This document shows positions 4,889 to 33,281 of a DNA stretch of 64,000 nt, piece by piece (the first letter of the stretch is position 1; each line of letters opens with the position of its first letter). The stretch covers positions 124,001 to 188,000 of the forward strand of contig JAKOGH010000681.1 in the NCBI GenBank assembly GCA_024811115.1. The letters run 5' to 3'. Both the position numbers and the translations under genes were made by a program. The notes under the pieces are model-generated. The model ran no database searches, was not told the origin of the DNA, and saw nothing but the letters and a program-made list of their open reading frames with translations. Origin of the DNA: Terana coerulea. Lineage: Eukaryota > Basidiomycota > Agaricomycetes > Polyporales > Phanerochaetaceae.

Positions 4889-6535
4889 ATGTACACCGCA
4901 AAGACCGTCGCTGCTCTTGCTATCCTTGCTGCTGTAGCTCCATCGCTCGGTGCCCCGTGCGTTTCCTCTATATCGTCATCATATAGCAGTCCCTGACTCG
5001 GAACTTGTTTTCATTCAGCACCATTGTCCGTGACGACCTCGAGGTCGTTGCACGTTCTCCCAAGGGTCCAAGCAAGCAGGACCTGGAGAGACAGGAGATT
5101 GTCCAGGAGCTGTTCCCCAAACCTCACCGCCGCGAGGGATGAGTTGTTCGCTCGGGCCCCGAAGAACGGCATCAACTGGGGCAACATCGAGAACGGCGAG
5201 ATCTTGAAGAGTCTCTACCATCGCCGCAGTGATGACGAGCTCCTCACCCGCTCGCCCAAGAACGGCATCAACTGGGGTAACATCGAGAACGGCGAGATCC
5301 TGAAGAGTCTCTATCACCGCCGCGAGCTGTCTGCCCGCTCTCCGAAGAACGGCATCAACTGGAACGATCTCGAGAACGAGAAGATTCTGAAGAGCCTCTA
5401 CCGCCGCGGTGGCCCGAACTTCAACGACCTCGAAAGGGCTGACGTTGTCGAAAACCTCTTCCCGAACAAACACCACCGTCGCTCGCCCAAGGGTCCGAGT
5501 TTTAACGACCTGGAGCGCGCGGATGTCGTCGAGAACCTCTTCCCCACCAAGCATCACCGTCGCTCGCCCAAGGGCGGACTCAACTTCCCTCAGCTCGAGA
5601 CGGCTGTCGTCATGAAGAGTATGTTCGGCCGTGACGCCAACTCCACCACCCCCGCCCAGAACGTGACGGCGCCGGCGCACAATGGCACCGAGACGCACGA
5701 GCACAAGCACGAGCACTACCACTCGACCATCGACGACCTCGAGAAGGCCGAGTTCCTGAAGAGCGTGCTCAATCGTAGGGACGAGCAGCTGTACGCCCGT
5801 TCGCCCAAGAACGGCATCAACTGGGGCGATGTCGAGAATGGCGAGATCCTGAAGAGCCTCTACCACCGCCGCGGCGACGACGAGCTCCTAGCCCGCTCCC
5901 CCAAGAACGGCATCAACTGGGGCGATGTCGAGAACGGCAAGATCCTTGGCTCCTTGTTCCACCGTCGCGCCGATGACGAGCTTCTAGCTCGTTCGCCCAA
6001 GAATGGCATCAACTGGGGCAACATCGAGAACGGCGAGATCCTGAAGAGCCTCTACCACCGCCGCGGCGACGAGCTCATCGCCCGCTCTCCCAAGAACGGT
6101 ATCAACTGGGGCGATGTTGAGAACGGCAAGATCCTTGGCTCCTTGTTCCACCGTCGCGCCGATGGCGAGCTCCTCGCTCGTTCTCCCAAGAATGGCATCA
6201 ACTGGGGCGACGTTGAGAATGGCAAGATTCTTGGCTCCCTATTCCACCGTCGCGCCGACGATGAGCTTTTGGCGCGCTCGCCCAAGAACAACCTCAACTG
6301 GGGCAACATTGAGAACGGCGAGATCCTGAAGAGCCTCTACCACCGCCGTGGTGACGACGAGCTCCTCGCTCGCTCTCCCAAGAACGGCATCAACTGGAAC
6401 GATGTTGAGAACGGCAAGATCCTCGGTTCTCTCTTCCATCGCGAGGACGCTCAGTGAGTGACATCTGCTCCTATTCATTCGACAATACGGCTAACACATA
6501 CTTGCAGGGCCCGTAGCCTTAACGAACTCGACTAG
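4889..6535 (+). CDS. KEP B: secreted kexin-type repeat peptide precursor
   Basis: Exon 1 (4889-4956) encodes a signal peptide, MYTAKTVAALAILAAVAPSLG. Intron 1 is 4957-5018, exon 2 is 5019-6453, intron 2 is 6454-6507 (phase 2), and the last mini-exon (6508-6535) encodes Q-ARSLNELD. About fifteen cores follow. The early ones are divergent (NDLERADVVENLFP, ending KHHRR); the later ones are SPKNGINW units ending SLYHRR or SLFHRR. Between them lies a linker with three N-glycosylation sequons and a HEHKHEHYH cluster. One extra G in the GGG run at 5136-5138 breaks the frame after LFPKPHRRE; without it the coding length is exactly 1530 nt (509 residues). Product role is unknown; kexin processing is inferred from the RR ends and the family pattern. 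The final core ends in HRED and has lost its RR. Confidence 0.88.
5150..6441 (+). repeat. Coding repeats of KEP B
   Basis: Two blocks of SPKNGINW-type units (about 5150-5405 and 5796-6441, close to a 96-nt period) flank divergent units (5415-5620) and a unique His-rich linker (5626-5735). GEILKSLYHRR and GKILGSLFHRR ends alternate in the second block. Confidence 0.9.
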
Positions 6536-7970: not shown

Positions 7971-8300
7971 GATTTGCGAATGGATTTTGACCAATATGGC
8001 TCAGCCGAAAAGGATTATGGAAGCCTTCAAAAGAAATTGCAAGCAATATAACCCTTTTGTCAGCTTTTTGTGGAGAGTGCGACGAAGAGGATAATACCTG
8101 CAGGCTGCGACAAGGCTGCGATGGCGTTTGATGCAAGTGCGTTGGGCTTGTTTGACTCTGAAAACACGCGCGGCTCGTTTCCCTTAACCCACCACCACCC
8201 TCACTTTGTACGTACAAAAACATCTCTCACCCGCCCACCACAACACTCTTTTCCAACTCTTAAAACCTTTGCCTTCAGCACTACTTCCAATATCGCCACC
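7971..8300. other. Shared divergent promoter of LSM7 and KAP95
   Basis: This 330-nt stretch separates two start codons facing away from each other. No clear TATA box was seen, as is common for housekeeping genes. A CACC precedes the KAP95 ATG. Confidence 0.5.
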
Positions 8301-11300
8301 ATGAACGCCAGTGAACTGCTCGCCAATACGCTATCGCCAGGTGCGCCTACCTTCCTTTAACGTGTTGCCATCCGCGTTCTCGACGATATCCATTCTAATT
8401 CGCATCTTTCGTCGCTCTTGCAGATCAACATACGCGTCAGGATGCTGAAGAAAAGCTTGAGGGAGCTTCTAGGGAGAACTACGTGCGTGTAGACGTTGTC
8501 TCGCGAAAGGTGGCCATACTAATTATCTTTCAACGGCAATGTAGCCTGCCTACATGATGATGCTTTCCTCAGAACTCGTCAATGAGGCCACTCCACCACA
8601 TGTCAGAAACGCTGCTGGTCTTGCCCTCAAGAACGCTATTTCCGCCAGGGTGCGTTTTCTACCACATAAACTCTCGCGTGTCTGGACTCGTCCTAGGATG
8701 CCACAAGACAACAAGACTACTCAAACCGTTGGCTTGCATTGGATGCGACTGTCCGGAACAAAATCAAGGAGGAGGCCCTCCATGCATTGTCGTCCACTAA
8801 CCCCAGGGTTGGTCAGGTTGCGGCGCAGTTTGTCGCAGCTATCGCTGGAGTAGAGCTGCCGGTCGGCCAGTGGCAAGATCTGATTGAGCGACTTTTGGGT
8901 TTCGTGAACAACCAAGCGAATACTGGGGCTGCGAGTAGCAACCTTACAAGCGATTGGTTACATTTGCGAGTCGATAGTAAGTCGCTGTCTATCTCCAGGT
9001 CCTCGATATAGACTGATAATGGCATGGAAAGAAACCGGAAGTTCTTGCCGTCCGCTCCAATGAAATCCTCACCGCAGTCATTCATGGAGCGCGAAAGGAA
9101 GAGCCATCAGTCGAAGTCCAGCAGGCAGCTATCATTGCGCTATACAACTCGCTGGAGTTCGTTCGAGACAACTTCGAGCGTGAAGTACGCTTATCATATA
9201 TTTAACTCTCAGGGTTACGGGTGCTAACCTTAGGTCAGGGAGAACGCAACTACATCATGCAAGTCGTCTGTGAGGCTACTCAAAACCCTTCCACTTCAGT
9301 ACAAGTCGGTGCTTTCGAGTGTCTAGTCAAAACCATGACCCTCTACTACGAGAAGATGGCGTTCTACATGGAGCGTGCACTATTCGGGGTACGGTTTATA
9401 TAACCACGCCTGGTGATCAAGACATTTACACCTTTCGTTTAGCTTACCGTTATGGGTATGAAGCACTCGGAAGAGACCATTGCTCTTCAGGCGATAGAGT
9501 TTTGGTCTACTGTCTGCGAAACCGAGACTGAGCTCGCTTGGGAAGCTGCAGAGGTACGTCTCATGGATGAGTTCCCATATTTCTCTGATGTCTTTGAAGG
9601 CCCAGGAATACGGCGAAGTCCCAGAGAATGAGAGCAAGTTCTTTGCCAAGGTTGCATTGCCTGAAATCCTCCCCGTACTCCTCCAGCTCTTGACTCACCA
9701 AGAAGAGGACGCTGACGACGATGAATGGAACGTGTCCATGGCTGCCGGAACCTGCTTGGGCCTCCTTGCGCAGGCTGTTTCTGACAACATCGTCCCGGCC
9801 GTCATTCCATTCATCGAGGCCAACATCCGCTCACAAGATTGGCATCAACGTGAAGCCGCCGTTATGGCATTCGGCTCCATTTTGGACGGTCCCGACCCAA
9901 CCGTCCTCACGCCCTTGGTCAACCAGGCCCTGCCCATCCTGCTTGACATGATGACCGACCAGAACGTACACGTCCGCGACACCGTTGCCTGGACTCTCGG
10001 CCGGATATGTGACGTCCTCATTAGCGCCATCAAGCCCGATGTCCACCTCCGACCACTCGTTGCAGCGCTTGTGAACGGTTTACAGGATAACCCGCGCATC
10101 ATCTCAAACTGCTGCTGGGGTCTCACGAATCTTGCTGACCAGCTTGCCTTCTCTGAGGACGAACAGCAGGCTCCCCAGGGCAATCCTCTCGCGCCATTCT
10201 ACGAAGGTATCGTCCAGGCGCTTCTGCACACCACTGAGACGTGAGTCCTTCTGACGAGGCCAGCGCCTTCTATGCTAACTAACTTCATTTAGTGCATCCA
10301 ACGAGGGCAACTACAGGACCGCCGCATACGAAGCTATCACGTCGTATGTGACTCACGCGACACCGGAAACCATTCCCGTCGTGCAAAACACCGCCGTCAC
10401 CATTCTTCACCGAATGGAGCAACTCATCGGCATGCATGTAAGGCTCATATCCTCTGCAACATGCGATTAGATTAACTCAATACTTGACAGGGTCAAATAT
10501 TGGGCACTGATGACCGCAACAACTGGAATGACCTGCAAAGTAACTTCTGCAGTGTGCTCATTAGCGTCATCCGCAAACTCAACGAGGGCATTCAACCTTT
10601 GGCGGACCGAATCATGACCCTCGTCTTGCAACTCATCCAGACCGGCGGAAAGACCACGACTGTTTTGGAAGACGCCTTCCTGGTCGTTGGCTCATTAGCG
10701 TCCGGCAAGTCTGATCCTCACTCCCGAGCACATACGGGCGCTTAACGTATATTTTTGCAGCTCTGGAGCACAACTTCGGGCCGTACATGCAGGCATTCCT
10801 CCCGCTCCTGTATCCCGCACTAAAGTCGCACGAGGATTCGCAGCTGTGCACCGTCGCTATCGGTGTCATTGGTGATCTGTCGCGTGCCCTGGGCGAGCAG
10901 AGCTCTCAGTATGCCAACGCATTCATGAGCGTGCTCCTCGAGAACTTGCAGAGCGAAGTCCTGAACCGCAATGTCAAAATCACTATCCTGTCGTGCTTTG
11001 GTGATATCGCTCTGGCAATTGGCCCCGCCTTCGAGCCATACCTCACGACAACTGTCGGTGTCCTTCGCCAGGCTGGAAGCATCATGCCCAACCCAGTATG
11101 TACTCTTGCCTTACATGTCATAATGATTACTAACGCTACCCACGAAGTTGGACATTGAGCTCGTTGAATATGTTTCGCAGCTTCGCGAGGGCATTCTCGA
11201 GGCCTACACTGGCATTGTTGGCGGTGTCAAGAACACCGACAAGGTCACCCTGTTGCTACCCCACGTCCCTACTATTCTGGAGCTTGTCCAGAGGTCCTTG

Positions 11301-11559
11301 GCGGACAGCGAGCGTACCGACGCGACCGTCAAGCTCGCTATCGGCCTTATCGGTGACCTTGCCGACTCGTTCCCGAACGGCGAGATCAAGCAGTACTTGT
11401 TGGCGGAATGGGTAGCCCAGGAGCTGCGCTCGAGGGGCGTCATCCGGCAGAAACCAAGAAGACTATCCGTTGGGCTCGTGAAGTAAGACCAATTAATTCT
11501 GTTTGAAGCCAAGCCATTGACCTAACGTTTTCTAGGTCGTGAAGCGCGCGACTGCATAG
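8301..11559 (+). CDS. KAP95: Importin beta-1 (karyopherin Kap95)
   Basis: Exon 1 (8301-8340) encodes MNASELLANTLSP; further exons include 8424-8482, 8545-8649 and 8697-8976, with short GT-AG introns. The protein is a chain of HEAT repeats: the N-terminal Ran-binding part (PPHVRNAAGLALKNAI, YSNRWLALDATVRNKIKEE), the acidic loop (QEEDADDDEWNVSMAAG), HEAT helices (VRDTVAWTLGRICDV, NCCWGLTNLAD), and the C-terminus (TIRWAREVVKRATA). It carries NLS cargo through nuclear pores with importin alpha and is released by Ran-GTP. Two single-base breaks interrupt it: one G too many in the GGGG at 8925-8928 (exon 4 is 280 nt, one more than the frame allows), and one G too few in the GGGG at 11434-11437. Both are probably sequence errors, because the protein on either side is highly conserved. 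Confidence 0.96.
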
Positions 11560-12114
11560 ACTGCGTCGAGTCGGCCATTTTCCATGCTCTGTTATGGCTC
11601 CTTTCCACATACGCAAATATCTGTTCTACCATTATGTTTGATGCCCATAATGCCCACCACGTCCGCCTCTGAAGGAGGCATATCATGCATGCAGTAGAGT
11701 TCGTGGCACGATGCCACATTAGGCAGGACTTGTTTCGTTTTGCTTTTTGCTCCCCTTTTCTTCCATCCCATATCCCGACTATCCCACACGCGCCTGTCAA
11801 CAATGTATCATTGGGCTTTGCAATCCTGTTTTCAACTACATCCCTCTCACCGTGGTTCTGGCGATGCATTTTATTACTCTGAATAATCCGAATAGCATTC
11901 TATGTACGCCTTTTCGGTCCGGGTCCATTAGCTCCTGAAGGGAGACATCATTTAGTCATGCCGTCATCAACATGTATCTTGTTGTTCAATAGTATCATTT
12001 ATCCACAACTTCATTTCACCTCTGCCACCTTCACATTGGATATGGTTGTTAGACTTCCTATTCGCATTGTGCTACACTTCGCAGTCTGTCCCAACCTGCT
12101 CACCACCGTTCACC
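11560..12114. other. 3' flank of KAP95, no supported gene
   Basis: T-rich 3' untranslated-like sequence. Short open frames on both strands show no motif. Nothing else was seen. Confidence 0.45.
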
Positions 12115-14507: not shown

Positions 14508-17500
14508 CTACAACCTGCTCTCCAGCAGCACATCCTTTGGTCGCCAGCCAAGTGCTCCGGCACCGAAGGCGGCTTCCAGAGCCTCTTCCACGGTGCGGAC
14601 GAACACAAACTCCATGACGGAGCGCACCTCGACGGGCACGTCGTGCTCGACGTCCTTGCGGTTCGCCCAGGGCAGTATGACCTTCGTGACGTCCGCGCGG
14701 TGGGCGCCGAGGACCTTCTCCTTAATGCCACCCACCGCGCCAACACGTCCCCGTAGCGTGATCTCTCCGGTCATGGCGATGTTTGGTGGAACGCATGCAC
14801 CCGTAAGTAGAGAGACGAACGCGCACGTCTGTGGTCCGTACATTAAAAATTGGGAGGTAAGGTATGAGCTAGGAATGGACTTACCATAGCGATACCCGCC
14901 GAAGGTCCATCCTTCTTCACCGCTCCGCTCGGTAGGTGCAGATGGATATCGATGCTATTCGGCACCCTCAGCGGGTCCTGCGACCGGGTATTCGTGATGC
15001 ATAGATTATACGCATGTGTCTTCACCCAGCTCAGCGCGAGCTCGCCGCTCTCCTTGATCACGTCGCCCAGGCTGCCCGTCAGCCGGAGCCTGCCCTCGCC
15101 GGGCACCGCGATGGTCTCGACCGGCAGGATGCCGCCCTCGCCCATGCCGGTGACGACGAGCCCGTACACGACGCCGCGGCGCTCCTCGCGCTCACGCTCC
15201 TCCGCGTCCCAGCGCGGTACGCCCAGGATCGCCTCGAGCTCGTCCTCCTCGACGACGTCCTTGTACTCCTGCCCGATCGCGTCGTCGTCCATGCGCTCCG
15301 CCCACTCAACGGCCTTGTACCGCACGACGGCGCCGATGGCGCGCTCGAGCGACCGTACGCCGGCCTCGCGGGTGTACCGCGTCGCGACATGCATCAGCGC
15401 GGGGTCCGTGAGCTGCAGGTGCTCGGGGGCGATGCCGTTTGCTTGCAGCTGCTTCGGGAGCAGGAACTTCCGCGCGATGTGCATCTTCTCGTTGTACGTG
15501 TACCCCGAGAGTTGAACGATCTCGCAGCGGTCCAGTAACGGCGCGGACATGGTCTCGAGCGTGTTGGAGGTGCAGATAAAGAGGACTTGACTGAGGTCGA
15601 TGGGCACGTTGATGTAGTGGTCGTTGAATGTGTGGTTTTGCTCTGGGTCGAGAACTTCAAGCAGAGCCGCGGCGGGATCGCCGTGGAAATTACTCTGTCC
15701 GACCTTGTCAATCTCGTCACTGGAATCCGGTGAGTACTATCAATGACACAATTGGTACAAGCCAACTCACAGCAGGATGACCGGGTCTGACCGTCCTGCC
15801 TTGCGCAGGGCTTGTACAATCATACCAGGGCCACTGGCAACGTACGTTCGGCGATGACCCCTGATTTCCGCTTCGTCACGAACGCCACCCAACGAAATGC
15901 GCTGAAACGGTCTGTCCAATGCACGAGCGATGGACTGTCCTAATGATGTCTTGCCTGTTCCCGGAGGCCCAACGAACCTGAATCAAAACCGTTAGTTCCT
16001 CAGAAGGCCACATCGATAACGTGAATAATACTTACAGCAGTATCGGGCCTTTGACAACCTTCCGTTGAGGTGCTTTCGCGGCGGGGGTGGGGACAGGAGT
16101 GACGGATCTGTGGTCCTTCGTCGTCGTGGGTACCAGAGCTAACTGCGCTTGCAGTGCCTCTTGCTCCTGTTTCGCTTCGTGTTCTGCTTGGAGTGTCCGA
16201 AGGCGGACGACGGCAAGGTACTCGATCAACCGTTTCTTAATCTTGTCCAGACCAAAGTGGTCAGAATCAAGCTGCTCGCGTGCATTCTTCAGGAAGGCGC
16301 GGTCACGGAGGGTGTCCAAAGCTGTCGAAGGGATGGTTGTGGAGGAATTCGGCCATGGTATCGAGACGAGCCATTCGAGCTGCACACAGGTTATGAGCAT
16401 TGTGCGAGCGCATGTGAGGAATAAAACGCACGTAGTTTCGGATAACGCCATGCTCAACGCTCCCCTGCGGTATCCGTTTCAGTCGCCTCCATTCCCTCAC
16501 CGCCATCTTCCTCTCCTCGCTCTCCTTCGCCATGGCTTCAATCTTGGCCTTCACGTCCGCCATCTCCTCGACTTCAGCCTGACTGTCATCATCCAACTCC
16601 GACGGTGTTCCGGACTGATCCTTCTCGTCAGGCATGCCGCCGTGAGGACTTGAGGCAGAGTTTGTGCGATGAAGGTTGTTGAGTTCGCGTTGGATGGCGG
16701 CGAGCTGCTGCCGGAGGAAGAACTCTTTCTGCTGCTTCGAGACGGACTCGTCTACGGATTGCGCTATGCGCTTGGAGACCTCTGAGATGGAGGACTGTTT
16801 GATGAAGATAGAGGTCGCACGGCGGAGGCGGTCGTCTGGGTCTGCTGCAGACAGAAATTCTGGAATGCAAAGGTCAGTATATGAGCTGAGACGCGAGTAG
16901 GGAATAGAGCGGCATCTGAAGCTTCCGTGTTATCTGGAGAAGCCTCTCTATGCAGTCATAGCTTATCGTGGGACCAGAGAATGTGAATTGACAGCGGTGT
17001 CGGCTGTCCACCACCATGTCATTGCTCCCACCCCGCACTCTGCTGGCAGTGAAAGCGAACCGGAACAGGACCCCGGCTGCTCGCAGTAGTGGATGTCCGC
17101 CTCGATAGCGCGGAGAAATTCGGGCGGACATCCGATATCACGAGCAGTCGGGGTCCTACCGGAACGAAGCACGAATAAGAAGAGTATAGAGTCGAAAATT
17201 CACTCACCCAGCTTGTCAGCATACTCCCCATTGGTGCTCGAGATGATGACGTCCGCCATCCAAGCGGCGCGGGCGGGCGAGACTTCCTCCACCAGCCCCG
17301 CGACTTTGCTGTAGGAATCCCGCTTCGTCTGCTGAGTGGTGTCCCGCGCAAGCTGGTCGAGAAGCTTCAAGGCTGCGGCTTTGAACTTGACGACCGCTTC
17401 TGGCGACGGCAGGCCGTTAACACCGCTCGGGTACTCGACCTTGCGGTAGGTGATTCCAGAGCTGATGACGAGAGGCTCTGGGAGGTCGGGACCATTGTCC

Positions 17501-17802
17501 AGAACGCGGATGCGTGTGATGCCGCTGAGGGACAGCAGGTAATACTGCTTCAGGTTGTTCGTGGCCGGCTTGATCAGTCGTAGTATCCGTGCTGCGGTGC
17601 CCCATTGGAAGACGGAAGCATCGTGGGCGGTCTGTGGGACGGCGGCGACCAAAGGTTGTTCCTCAGACTCGCGCACCAGAGCAAGCAGGGCTTCGCCGAC
17701 TGACTTGGACACCGGGAACGTTATTCGACCTGTAGGAATGAGAATAAGCGGGTGCGGAAGGGCGAGGAGGGGCAATGTCGAGCTCGACGCGGCAGAGGAC
17801 AT
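14508..17802 (-). CDS. Peroxisomal Lon protease (LONP2/Pln type)
   Basis: Six exons on the minus strand: 17208-17802, 16432-16859, 16036-16379, 15771-15977, 14885-15719 and 14508-14828. They sum to 2730 nt (909 residues) in frame. Order: Lon N-terminal substrate domain ([20 protein letters not shown]), coiled helical region ([20 protein letters not shown]), AAA+ ATPase with Walker A GPPGTGKT and Walker B VILLDEIDK, sensor region ([18 protein letters not shown]), then the protease domain with the Ser-Lys dyad in [10 protein letters not shown] and [14 protein letters not shown]. The protein ends in SRL, a type-1 peroxisomal targeting signal, and has no mitochondrial presequence. It is therefore the peroxisomal Lon that removes damaged or unassembled matrix proteins. 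Its first intron (348 nt) is much longer than the other introns and holds a large hairpin. Confidence 0.95.
17061..17163. repeat. Large imperfect inverted repeat in Lon intron 1
   Basis: The left arm (about 17068-17101) contains GGACCCCGGCTGCTCG and GGATGTCCGCC. The right arm (about 17123-17156) contains their reverse complements GGCGGACATCC and CGAGCAGTCGGGGTCC. About 26 of 34 arm bases pair, with an internal bulge of six, a loop of about 21 nt, and a further match (CCGGAACAGGA against TCCTACCGG) outside. Confidence 0.8.
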
Positions 17803-18670
17803 CGTGGTCGCCGGTAAGATCTTGTAAAGCAGTTGGGAGGCAGACGCTTATGAAGTCACTAACGTGCTACTAACTGAGCTTAGACCTTGGTTAGTGGAAG
17901 CGGTCGCGGTGGTGACCGTGAGACAGCAACGCGCTTATCTCGGTAAGCTTTCGAGCTAGTGGCAATAAGTAAAGTGCCGTTATCACATGCGCTACACCGT
18001 TTCAGGCACGGGAATGGTCAGCACATTTCCTCGATTGGGTCTCAGTTCCCACGCTTAGCTTGCCCTTCCCCAGCACCGTGGTTTACTGTTCGAAATACGT
18101 TCACGGTCGCAATTCTCTGCTATGACCTGTGTATCGAACACGTTCACTTCTCAATGATATGGGCCCCGCACGATAGCGTGCTCTCTCTGAGAAGCCTGCC
18201 CGAAATTCGAACCCTTACGGCGCCTTCAATCTGTTGCCTGTACCGTCGAACGACCTCAGAGCCTCGCCAGTGCACCGCGTGCTAGGAGAGCTTGGTGGAG
18301 GCTGAAGTACTTAGGGAGTGCTACGTGGGGATGTTGTATAAACGGGTGGTGAGTTGACCTGTCCGTCTGAGGCATGTTTTTCGCTGATCTGGGGATTTGT
18401 AGGCTGTAAGGTGGTCCGAAACCAAATGTGCTCTTGCTATGCTCTCTTGCGTCTGAGGACAAGTTTCGCGGCCATCGCCATCTGTCAAAGACCAATGAGA
18501 TTCTGCAAGAGGTTGTCTGCCGTCCGCCCTCTCACTTGTTCGAGGATAGGCTGAGGGTGCACAGGGTCATATCGGAATGTCAGCGGACCCCATGCGCCGA
18601 TCTTCCGTCTGAGAGTGCAGAAGCCCTCACGCCTTCGATCAGGGACTCGGCCAACTCCGTCGCAGCGCCC
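17803..18670. other. Divergent intergenic region between Lon and F-box gene
   Basis: Holds the upstream region of the minus-strand Lon gene and the plus-strand F-box gene. Short open frames show no motifs. No repeat or RNA gene was recognised. Confidence 0.45.
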
Positions 18671-32281: not shown

Positions 32282-33281
32282 ATGCGTTCCACTGCCGTTG
32301 TCGCTCTCGCTCTCGCCGCCGCTGCGGCCCCCGCTATCGCATACCCTACCCCGTATGCGGCGTACAACGCCAAGCGCTCGGAGCTCAGTGCCCGCGAGAT
32401 CAACGACATCCTTGCTCGATCTTTCGCCTCCGATTTCTGGGGCGGGTTCAAGAAAGGCTTCGTTGGCACTCTTGAGACCGTCGGGCCCGTCGTAGCTAGC
32501 GTCCTGAAGCGCGAGGACCTCGAGCTCCTCGCTCGCGATGATGACCTGATGGCTCGCAGCTTCGGATCCGACTTCGTCAAGGGGTTCAAGCAAGGCTTCG
32601 TTGGCACCCTGAAGGCGGTCGCTCCCGTCGCTCTCAGCTTCTTGAAGCGCGAGGATCTGGACCTTATGGCGCGTGATGCTTTGGCGTGCGTTCTCCTAGT
32701 TCTGCATCCCGAGATGGTTGCTTACGATGTGGAATTGATAGCGCGCACCTCGCTCGCCGGGGTGAAGTCGACGCCCGCAGCTTTGGGTCTGACTTCGTCA
32801 AGGGGTTCAAGGAAGGCTTCACGGGCACCCTGAAGACCCTCGGCCCCGTCGTCGCCAGCTTCCTCAAGCGTGAAGACCTTGAGCTGCTCGCCCGCGGCAA
32901 CACGGATGAGATCCTTGCTCGCTCGACCGCAGGGGACTTCTGGAACGGCTTCAAGAAGGGCTTCGTTGGCACCATCGAGACCCTCGGCCCCATCGCGGCG
33001 AAGTTCCTGAAGCGCGAGGACCTCGAACTCCTGTCGCGTGCCGAGCAGGAGGAGCTCCTGCTCGGTCGTTCGCGTCTGACTTCTGGGGCGGCTTCAAGAA
33101 GGGCTTTGTCGGCACCCTGGAGACCGTTGGCCCAGTTGTTGCCAGCTTCCTCAAGCGTGAGGAGCTCGAGATGTTGGCTCGCGAGTATCCGTGAGTTCCT
33201 TTTTCAGCAATACTGTTTATTTTTACTGATAAAACATTGCGCAGTGAATTCGCTGCTCGGAGCATTAACGATCTGGACTGA
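32282..33281 (+). CDS. KEP C: repeat precursor of amphipathic Gly/Lys-rich peptides
   Basis: Exons 32282-32685, 32742-33190 and 33245-33281, with GT-AG introns of 56 and 54 nt. A signal peptide (MRSTAVVALALAAAAAPAIA) and short propeptide (YPTPYAAYNAKR) precede five 31-residue cores. Each begins S(F/T)(A/G), continues (D)F(W/V)(K/G/N)GFK(K/Q/E)GF, then GT(L/I)..(V/L)GP, and ends (S/K)(V/F)LKR. After KR comes ED(L)(E/D)L(L/M)(A/S)R and a variable acidic spacer. The last mini-exon encodes PEFAARSINDLD after a phase-2 intron, as in KEP A/B. One base (G in CTGGCTCGG) is missing between 33060 and 33061; with it the coding length is 891 nt, 296 residues. The cores look cationic and amphipathic, a shape shared with membrane-active peptides; activity is not established. 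Confidence 0.85.
32410..33180 (+). repeat. Five coding repeats of KEP C
   Basis: TTC(A/G)(A/T)GA..GGCTTC(G/A) recurs five times. Unit spacing varies (about 141-180 nt) because the acidic spacer after KR differs in length, unlike the strict 96-nt period of KEP A/B. Confidence 0.85.

Follow-up and report, generated by a model that had tools for sequence, protein, structure and literature searches.

A short C-terminal tail that looks common to hypervariable Kex2-processed precursors in Terana coerulea and other Agaricomycetes

KEPs are a known class of fungal precursors (Le Marquer 2019, PMC6339444; Umemura 2020, PMC7329392; Vogt 2022, PMC9769878). They are common in fungi yet difficult to sort into families, since cores that evolve so fast defy alignment. 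Linear, little modified peptides have been detected in agaricomycetes (Vogt 2022, PMC9769878); 20 KEPs of one type have been described in Peniophora sp. CBMAI 1063 (Umemura 2020, PMC7329392); and in one discovery pipeline the C-terminal fragment was initially put aside (Le Marquer 2019, PMC6339444). The precursors discussed here resemble KEPs in having a putative signal peptide and tandem cores with dibasic sites in between. Individual genes among them may well be listed already in published KEP supplements, and the family as a whole may be one or more of the published KEP types. In the article texts searched on KEPs and related precursors we found no C-terminal motif common to different core types and, as the original prediction had supposed, no name for the tail described below; its letters do occur in print, in the parts of the literature covered, close to the beginning of the precursor of a mating pheromone (PMC5473757).

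The window, that is, the whole 64-kb stretch of DNA analysed (contig C526, 124001–188000), contains three repeat-precursor genes, KEP B, KEP A and KEP C, all on the plus strand. KEP B enters from the left, its start lying outside the window at contig position 123084. The repeat part of its central exon (1–568) is followed by a predicted 57-nt last intron in phase 2 (569–625) and a 28-nt last exon that, on predicted splicing, ends in ARSLNELD-stop (626–653). KEP A lies approximately 4.2 kb beyond. It is predicted to begin with a 68-nt exon encoding the signal peptide MYTAKTVAALAILAAVAPSLGA (4889–4956) and a 62-nt phase-2 intron (4957–5018), which lead into a central exon of Kex2-site repeats with INWGNIENGEILKSLYH-type cores (5019–6453). 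The interval 6454–6535, with which we are chiefly concerned, is exactly its last intron (6454–6507; 54 nt, phase 2, predicted) plus its last exon (6508–6535), 28 nt that again end, on predicted splicing, in ARSLNELD-stop. KEP C, at 32.3 kb, opens with an exon encoding the putative signal peptide MRSTAVVALALAAAAAPAIA, spacers and the first cores (32282–32685). An internal 56-nt intron in phase 2, picked by eye and checked for frame (32686–32741), precedes a second exon with FWGGFKKGFVGTLETVGPVVASFL-type cores (32742–33190), a predicted 54-nt last intron in phase 2 (33191–33244) and a 37-nt last exon, for which predicted splicing gives the end AARSINDLD-stop (33245–33281). Spliced as predicted, the three proteins end ...HRRSE-ARSLNELD (B), ...HREDAQ-ARSLNELD (A) and ...REYPEFAARSINDLD (C), and all three last introns have the donor GTGAGT and an acceptor of the form YAG. 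This common ending, a phase-2 intron and a tiny exon, is what had been noticed at the outset, and splice prediction bears it out.

The precursors have hydrophobic N-termini that, by inspection and by homology, resemble signal peptides, and at least three repeats divided by KR, RR or KK are present in the KEP A and KEP B arrays and among the KEP C cores. KEP B reads open as one gene in this assembly. Frame breaks near 5140 in KEP A and near 33070 in KEP C mean that neither is one uninterrupted gene here; these breaks, like those in several relatives, may reflect either mistakes of assembly or genuine damage. A neighboring importin beta-1 gene (8300–11560), matched in two pieces, also seems by eye to shift frame, near 11440 in its conserved end, which would fit assembly errors. 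The window further contains, on the minus strand, a gene for a Lon-type protease (14840–17850), with matches to the C-terminal proteolytic, lid and AAA domains and a match to the substrate-binding domain that falls below the cut-off.

Within the window the tail is confined to the three precursors. A six-frame scan finds it only at 627–653, 6509–6535 and 33255–33281, and a scan with a DNA pattern, allowing up to two mismatches, returns the same three sites against an expectation of 0.00 from 100 dinucleotide shuffles of the window. When the 48.4 Mb of the genome are scanned with a degenerate DNA pattern of the tail, 14 matches appear, compared with one for the reversed pattern; 12 of these lie within loci of the family, and those on C497 and C838 are not precursors. 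A pattern that tolerates up to two mismatches gives 48 matches versus 37 for its reversed control. Twenty of the 48 have at most one mismatch, and 19 of these were read, C434 being left out: 18 belong to the family and one (C121) to a different repeat protein. Among the 28 with two mismatches, five belong to the family, one (C497) was read and does not, and 22 were left unread. After reading, the tail loci number 21, distributed over 12 contigs (C19, C113, C121, C486, C526, C590, C591, C604, C659, C769, C779 and C822), with near-identical extra copies on C591, C487, C434 (matched, its locus unread) and C780.

Signal peptides offer a second route to the family that is independent of the tail pattern. 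A search by signal peptide alone recovers 17 genes, 16 of which are followed on the same strand by a tail, or 14 of 15 once two near-identical pairs are removed. The sole exception is on C35 (713500–715099, minus strand), where a signal peptide and ESGA-like cores are present without a recognizable tail, possibly because the gene has decayed. The family is not uniform, nor is every gene model complete. An unbroken model from signal peptide to tail was not obtained for KEP A, C659, C486b or C822b, and the models of C590b, C604a, C113, C591b and C486c include doubtful stretches. Three tail loci, C113, the copy C591b and C590c, have one clear core or none and so fall outside the KEPs as defined by repeats. 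Precursors on C590, C591, C822 and C779 carry long His-Gly-Lys leader repeats (KHHGHKHHGHK, for example), a segment that is possibly metal-binding or a spacer.

The exon structure of these genes is regular at the front and less so at the back. In all 17 signal-peptide genes the first splice donor lies exactly 68 nt from the ATG start, in phase 2. At the 22 tail loci examined, the last intron is in phase 2 in 15 and in phase 1 in two (C779a and C779b); for C590b and C604b the second-ranked intron was adopted, since it suits the spacer reading frame. In the remaining five (C19, C659, C822a, C822b and C121) there is no intron candidate within 105 nt of the stop codon, and in C822a and C121 candidates occur only farther upstream. 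The separate mini-exon thus stands as a prediction for A, B and C, and does not hold for the family at large. Because the core array mostly occupies a symmetric 2-2 segment, it could change in length or be exchanged without a frameshift, and we infer that exchange of core arrays really happened.

The GTGAGT donor of the last intron occurs in the window at 569–574, 6454–6459 and 33191–33196, and at eight other loci. In phase 2 it creates an immediate in-frame TGA, so that a retained intron would yield a precursor without a tail. Such an optional tail is possible at these 11 loci; as a general mechanism we dropped it, because other loci have no nearby intron or a different donor. The same regularity could mean that selection acts on the RNA, the last intron and exon steering splicing or 3'-end processing, to which the peptide would be incidental. 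This seems very unlikely to us, for the tail is kept in the five of 22 loci that have no close intron candidate, none of the 17 first introns has a GTGAGT donor, and third codon positions in the tail vary.

That variation can be quantified. Among the 20 of 24 own-genome tails that were compared—the near-identical copies C591b, C487 and C780, and C121, having been removed—pS is 0.63 and pN 0.15, and three kinds of stop codon are used; since a pattern served to find most of the 20 tails, the pN/pS ratio is biased toward low values. Identity at codon positions 1, 2 and 3 is 0.80, 0.94 and 0.52, and falls to 0.27 in the upstream flanks and 0.29 in those downstream. Evidence from the signal-peptide route and from other species is less biased. 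When the C591 gene, which itself bears a tail, was used as a protein query, 33 proteins were found at E≤10 and 23 at E≤1e-3, among 7999 candidates scored. Of the 23, 15 have the strict end [ST][LIV][NDEG]xLD, two have variants of it (RSWVLDELD and, in P0015, REFADLD), and six do not end in LD. The six look like open reading frames or gene models that end in an intron or in a core and so never reach the last exon: P0002 and P0013, for example, stop shortly past the point EMRYV, where P0001 runs on to SSRSLNELD. Species with strict tails at this threshold include three of the Polyporales (Cerrena zonata, Antrodiella citrinella and Hermanssonia centrifuga) and one of the Agaricales (Cristinia sonorae). 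The matches are mostly named 'hypothetical' or 'uncharacterized', with single entries under an EF-hand or a beta-lactam-type name.

Aligned at their ends, the 25 of the 33 proteins that finish in LD have pairwise identities of 0.42–1.0 over positions -1 to -7 (0.52 at -7), L at -2 and D at -1 being fixed by the selection rule and -3 to -7 being free. Beyond the tail identity drops to 0.24 at -8 and to 0.05–0.09 from -9 to -30. Taken together, the consensus is (A)-R-S-[LI]-[NDE]-[ED]-L-D-COOH, and the tail has the look of a C-terminal motif under selection in a hypervariable family of Kex2-processed precursors that, to judge by sequence comparison, T. coerulea has in common with other Agaricomycetes. 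Might the tail, instead, have been inherited neutrally, and be common merely by descent after recent gene duplication? The genes are evidently paralogues, since the signal-peptide exon, the spacers and the introns are common to them too. But synonymous sites have diverged widely (pS 0.63), as have the flanks (identity 0.27–0.29), while the residues were kept, and the tail recurs at E≤1e-3 in proteins of other species that have no more than 30–51% identity with the C591 query, so we consider this quite improbable.

What lies in front of the tail varies far more. Six kinds of core carry it, the C121 repeat apart: INWGNIENGEILKSLYH cores in KEP A and KEP B; LNWGDLTNEKVLNGLF cores in C486; FWGGFKKGFVGTLETVGPVVASFL cores in KEP C; ESGAFNFGSIIKALGSFL cores in C591a, C659, C590a, C590b, C604a and C822; ESGAITLEQGANIASIGSSIVSAVEPLVKDIYNHF cores in C19 and C769; and a SEALGLSTIFKIGSGLFHGAEALFG core in C604b. 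In Pfam, the cores of L009 (on C19) bear a very weak likeness to phenol-soluble modulin beta, at E 5.2 and far below the cut-off. The C121 protein (431335–432884, minus strand; L073 and L075) consists of many HGDSKERSGSRSALTRRR units behind a possible signal peptide and ends in RSLNALD; its repeat is unlike every other core.

The cores of KEP C had been thought unlike those of KEP A and KEP B, and for A/B versus C this stands, no link rising clearly above shuffled sequences. It does not follow that KEP C is an isolated swap. A profile built from 161 ESGA-type cores fails to distinguish the KEP C cores directly, since 14 to 58 of 200 shuffled sequences do equally well, and pieces of KEP C or ESGA, used directly as queries with their spacers included, give weak cross-matches only (E 0.007 to 0.06). 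The same profile scores the cores of one further protein, P0023, at 12–21 bits, a score equaled by none of 200 shuffles, and a P0023 profile in turn finds all five KEP C cores at 20–31 bits (E 1.8e-5 to 7.7e-9, for 1000 sequences), the best decoy reaching 13.7 bits among the 3559 reported of 4400. P0023 itself ends in ARSLNHLD. By profile comparison, then, the KEP C cores are distant members of the ESGA family, connected through this one intermediate. For the seven units of KEP A/B, 3 to 51 of 200 shuffles reach the score of the ESGA profile, and for the C486 cores 0 to 83 do; no link to other cores was demonstrated for either, or for the C121 repeat.

Other searches for relatives were unproductive. 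Protein searches with KEP A and with an alignment of KEP B and a C486 gene piece (E≤1e-3 and E≤10) brought up no relative of the A/B-type cores outside the T. coerulea genome, a weak result in that approximately 8000 candidates were scored in each. No Pfam domain exceeds the cut-off in KEP B, the C591 gene, the first KEP C piece or the C19 piece, and a PDB search with the C591 gene gave no meaningful match (best E 0.011). A Coprinopsis KEP core has no match in the T. coerulea genome, an empty outcome that carries no weight. Were they helical, ESGA and KEP C cores would be amphipathic (0.526 and 0.576, compared with 0.377 and 0.403 when shuffled), and those of A and C486 would not (0.394 and 0.275, compared with 0.404 and 0.378). 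Mean core charge is -0.3 for ESGA, -0.4 for A, -1.8 for C486 and +0.8 for C, values that do not suggest charge as a means of self-protection, one of the roles proposed for the tail at the outset.

Here and in other fungi the same tail is found with several core classes and one core class with different tails, so the two do not simply co-vary. The conserved frame around changing cores that the original prediction described in three genes is supported, in this genome and beyond it, and invariable pairing of tail with core, which it named as one possible disproof, is not what we see.

If the tail is not tied to the cores, is it simply one more spacer? In 40 sequences we found 138 acidic spacers, each running from a dibasic site to a single R, of which 101 are distinct; their mean charge is -2.6, the final two residues left out. 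LLA, expected from the first reading of these genes, is the commonest choice at the end of the 63 distinct eight-residue spacers, the search pattern itself having required an ending [LIMV][ASTMV]R. The tail could be no more than the last acidic spacer, a C-terminal cap kept to give the final core a soluble acidic end and a cleavage site, for which a specific binding partner would be superfluous. It is likewise acidic (-2 to -3), it likewise stands mostly behind an R, and the REFADLD end of P0015 is close to the spacer REFEELLAR. We regard this explanation as possible, though rather doubtful, for the spacers vary freely whereas the tail does not. Nor does the tail match the spacer profile in a way that convincingly sets it apart from permutations of itself: against the eight-residue profile 54 of 360 permutations do as well in the best case, SLNELD, and 85 of 360, 29 of 180 and 28 of 180 in the others, other lengths being worse. 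Finally, the hexapeptide is C-terminal in all 26 of its occurrences and internal in none (40 sequences, 15,251 residues). This argues against the idea, raised early on, that the tail is the relic of a truncated repeat, and for a motif that is read at a free C-terminus.

What might read it? Probably the tail helps the cell to handle these precursors and does not belong to the product. Our preferred reading, to which we would give roughly an even chance, is that the motif is bound on the intact precursor, acts as a common sorting or processing tag, and is removed after the R. In the ER and Golgi the tail of the intact precursor would be bound by a common factor—a cargo receptor, a chaperone or the processing machinery itself—that requires the terminal L-D carboxylate and the preceding S-L-N. 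Binding would bring very different and poorly folded repeat proteins to one Kex2 compartment, where a cut after the R that precedes S would remove the tag, a role akin to that of a follower peptide. Between the phase-2 introns, meanwhile, core arrays could expand, vanish or be replaced, with signal and tail undisturbed. The genome encodes three matches over the cut-off to the Kex2-type P_proprotein domain, and a DPPIV domain is present. Cleavage at single arginines has been inferred for Coprinopsis precursors expressed in Pichia (PMC9769878).

The same cut could be put to a different use. Suppose that the tail is the message: a Kex2-type cut after R would free S-[LI]-[NDE]-[ED]-L-D as a common extracellular signal or marker, and the cores would be a second product. 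The tail is by far the best conserved part of the last 30 residues, it stands behind an R in 18 of the 25 LD-ending proteins, and it calls to mind the C-terminal domains, likewise conserved, of the precursors of plant peptide hormones; short C-terminal peptides, moreover, were detected from Coprinopsis KEP 497993 in Pichia (PMC9769878). Lineages have their own variants, however, such as SIDELD and SLEELD, and the R before S is absent from seven of the 25 cross-species tails and from two of the 20 own tails (one has G, the other S), so that release of the exact hexapeptide is not always possible. We think this use unlikely. Variants such as SLDELD also hold DEL near the end, as would a KDEL-type ER retrieval signal. 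What the KDEL receptor recognizes is a terminal L; all 20 own tails end in D after that L (as the pattern used to find them favored), the 25 LD-ending relatives have the final D by selection, and none has a terminal [HK]DEL-COOH. Retrieval of this kind is scarcely credible here.

Whatever its function, a seven-residue motif that is kept across species is a simple handle on one large KEP family, and helps to complete gene models that lack the small last exon. With it, a single truncation could probe how repeat precursors are guided along the secretory pathway. Should the tail prove to be read by a receptor, fungi would have a new C-terminal signal for sorting or processing, of practical use as a tag in peptide production; if it were the message after all, mushrooms would own a common peptide message hidden at the ends of unlike precursors.

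The arrangement has parallels elsewhere. In MSDIN precursors, the source of amatoxins and phallotoxins, constant flanks likewise surround a hypervariable core, and the constant C-terminal follower is thought to serve processing. Those precursors have an MSDIN-type leader without a signal peptide, and a core flanked by proline; the tail precursors, in contrast, combine a putative signal peptide with tandem cores and Kex2-type sites, and have no MSDIN start—KEP B, for instance, begins with a hydrophobic, signal-like stretch and has cores flanked by RR. Dikaritins of the ustiloxin type, marked by a UstYa/DUF3328 gene beside the precursor gene, also come from a secreted repeat precursor cut at Kex2 sites. 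Of the 22 matches to UstYa/DUF3328 in the T. coerulea genome, none shares a contig with any of the tailed precursors found, as would be expected if the products are linear, though in an assembly of 896 contigs neighbors beyond a contig end are possible. Ece1 of Candida albicans is a Kex2-cut precursor too, and its product, candidalysin, is similar in size to the amphipathic helices predicted for the ESGA and KEP C cores; the likeness is a general one of amphipathicity, and does not extend to the A/B cores, which are non-amphipathic. A further parallel is found in the precursors of frog skin peptides and conotoxins, in which a conserved frame likewise holds hypervariable mature peptides. There the conserved part is N-terminal, whereas the family described here has added to it a conserved tag at the C-terminus.
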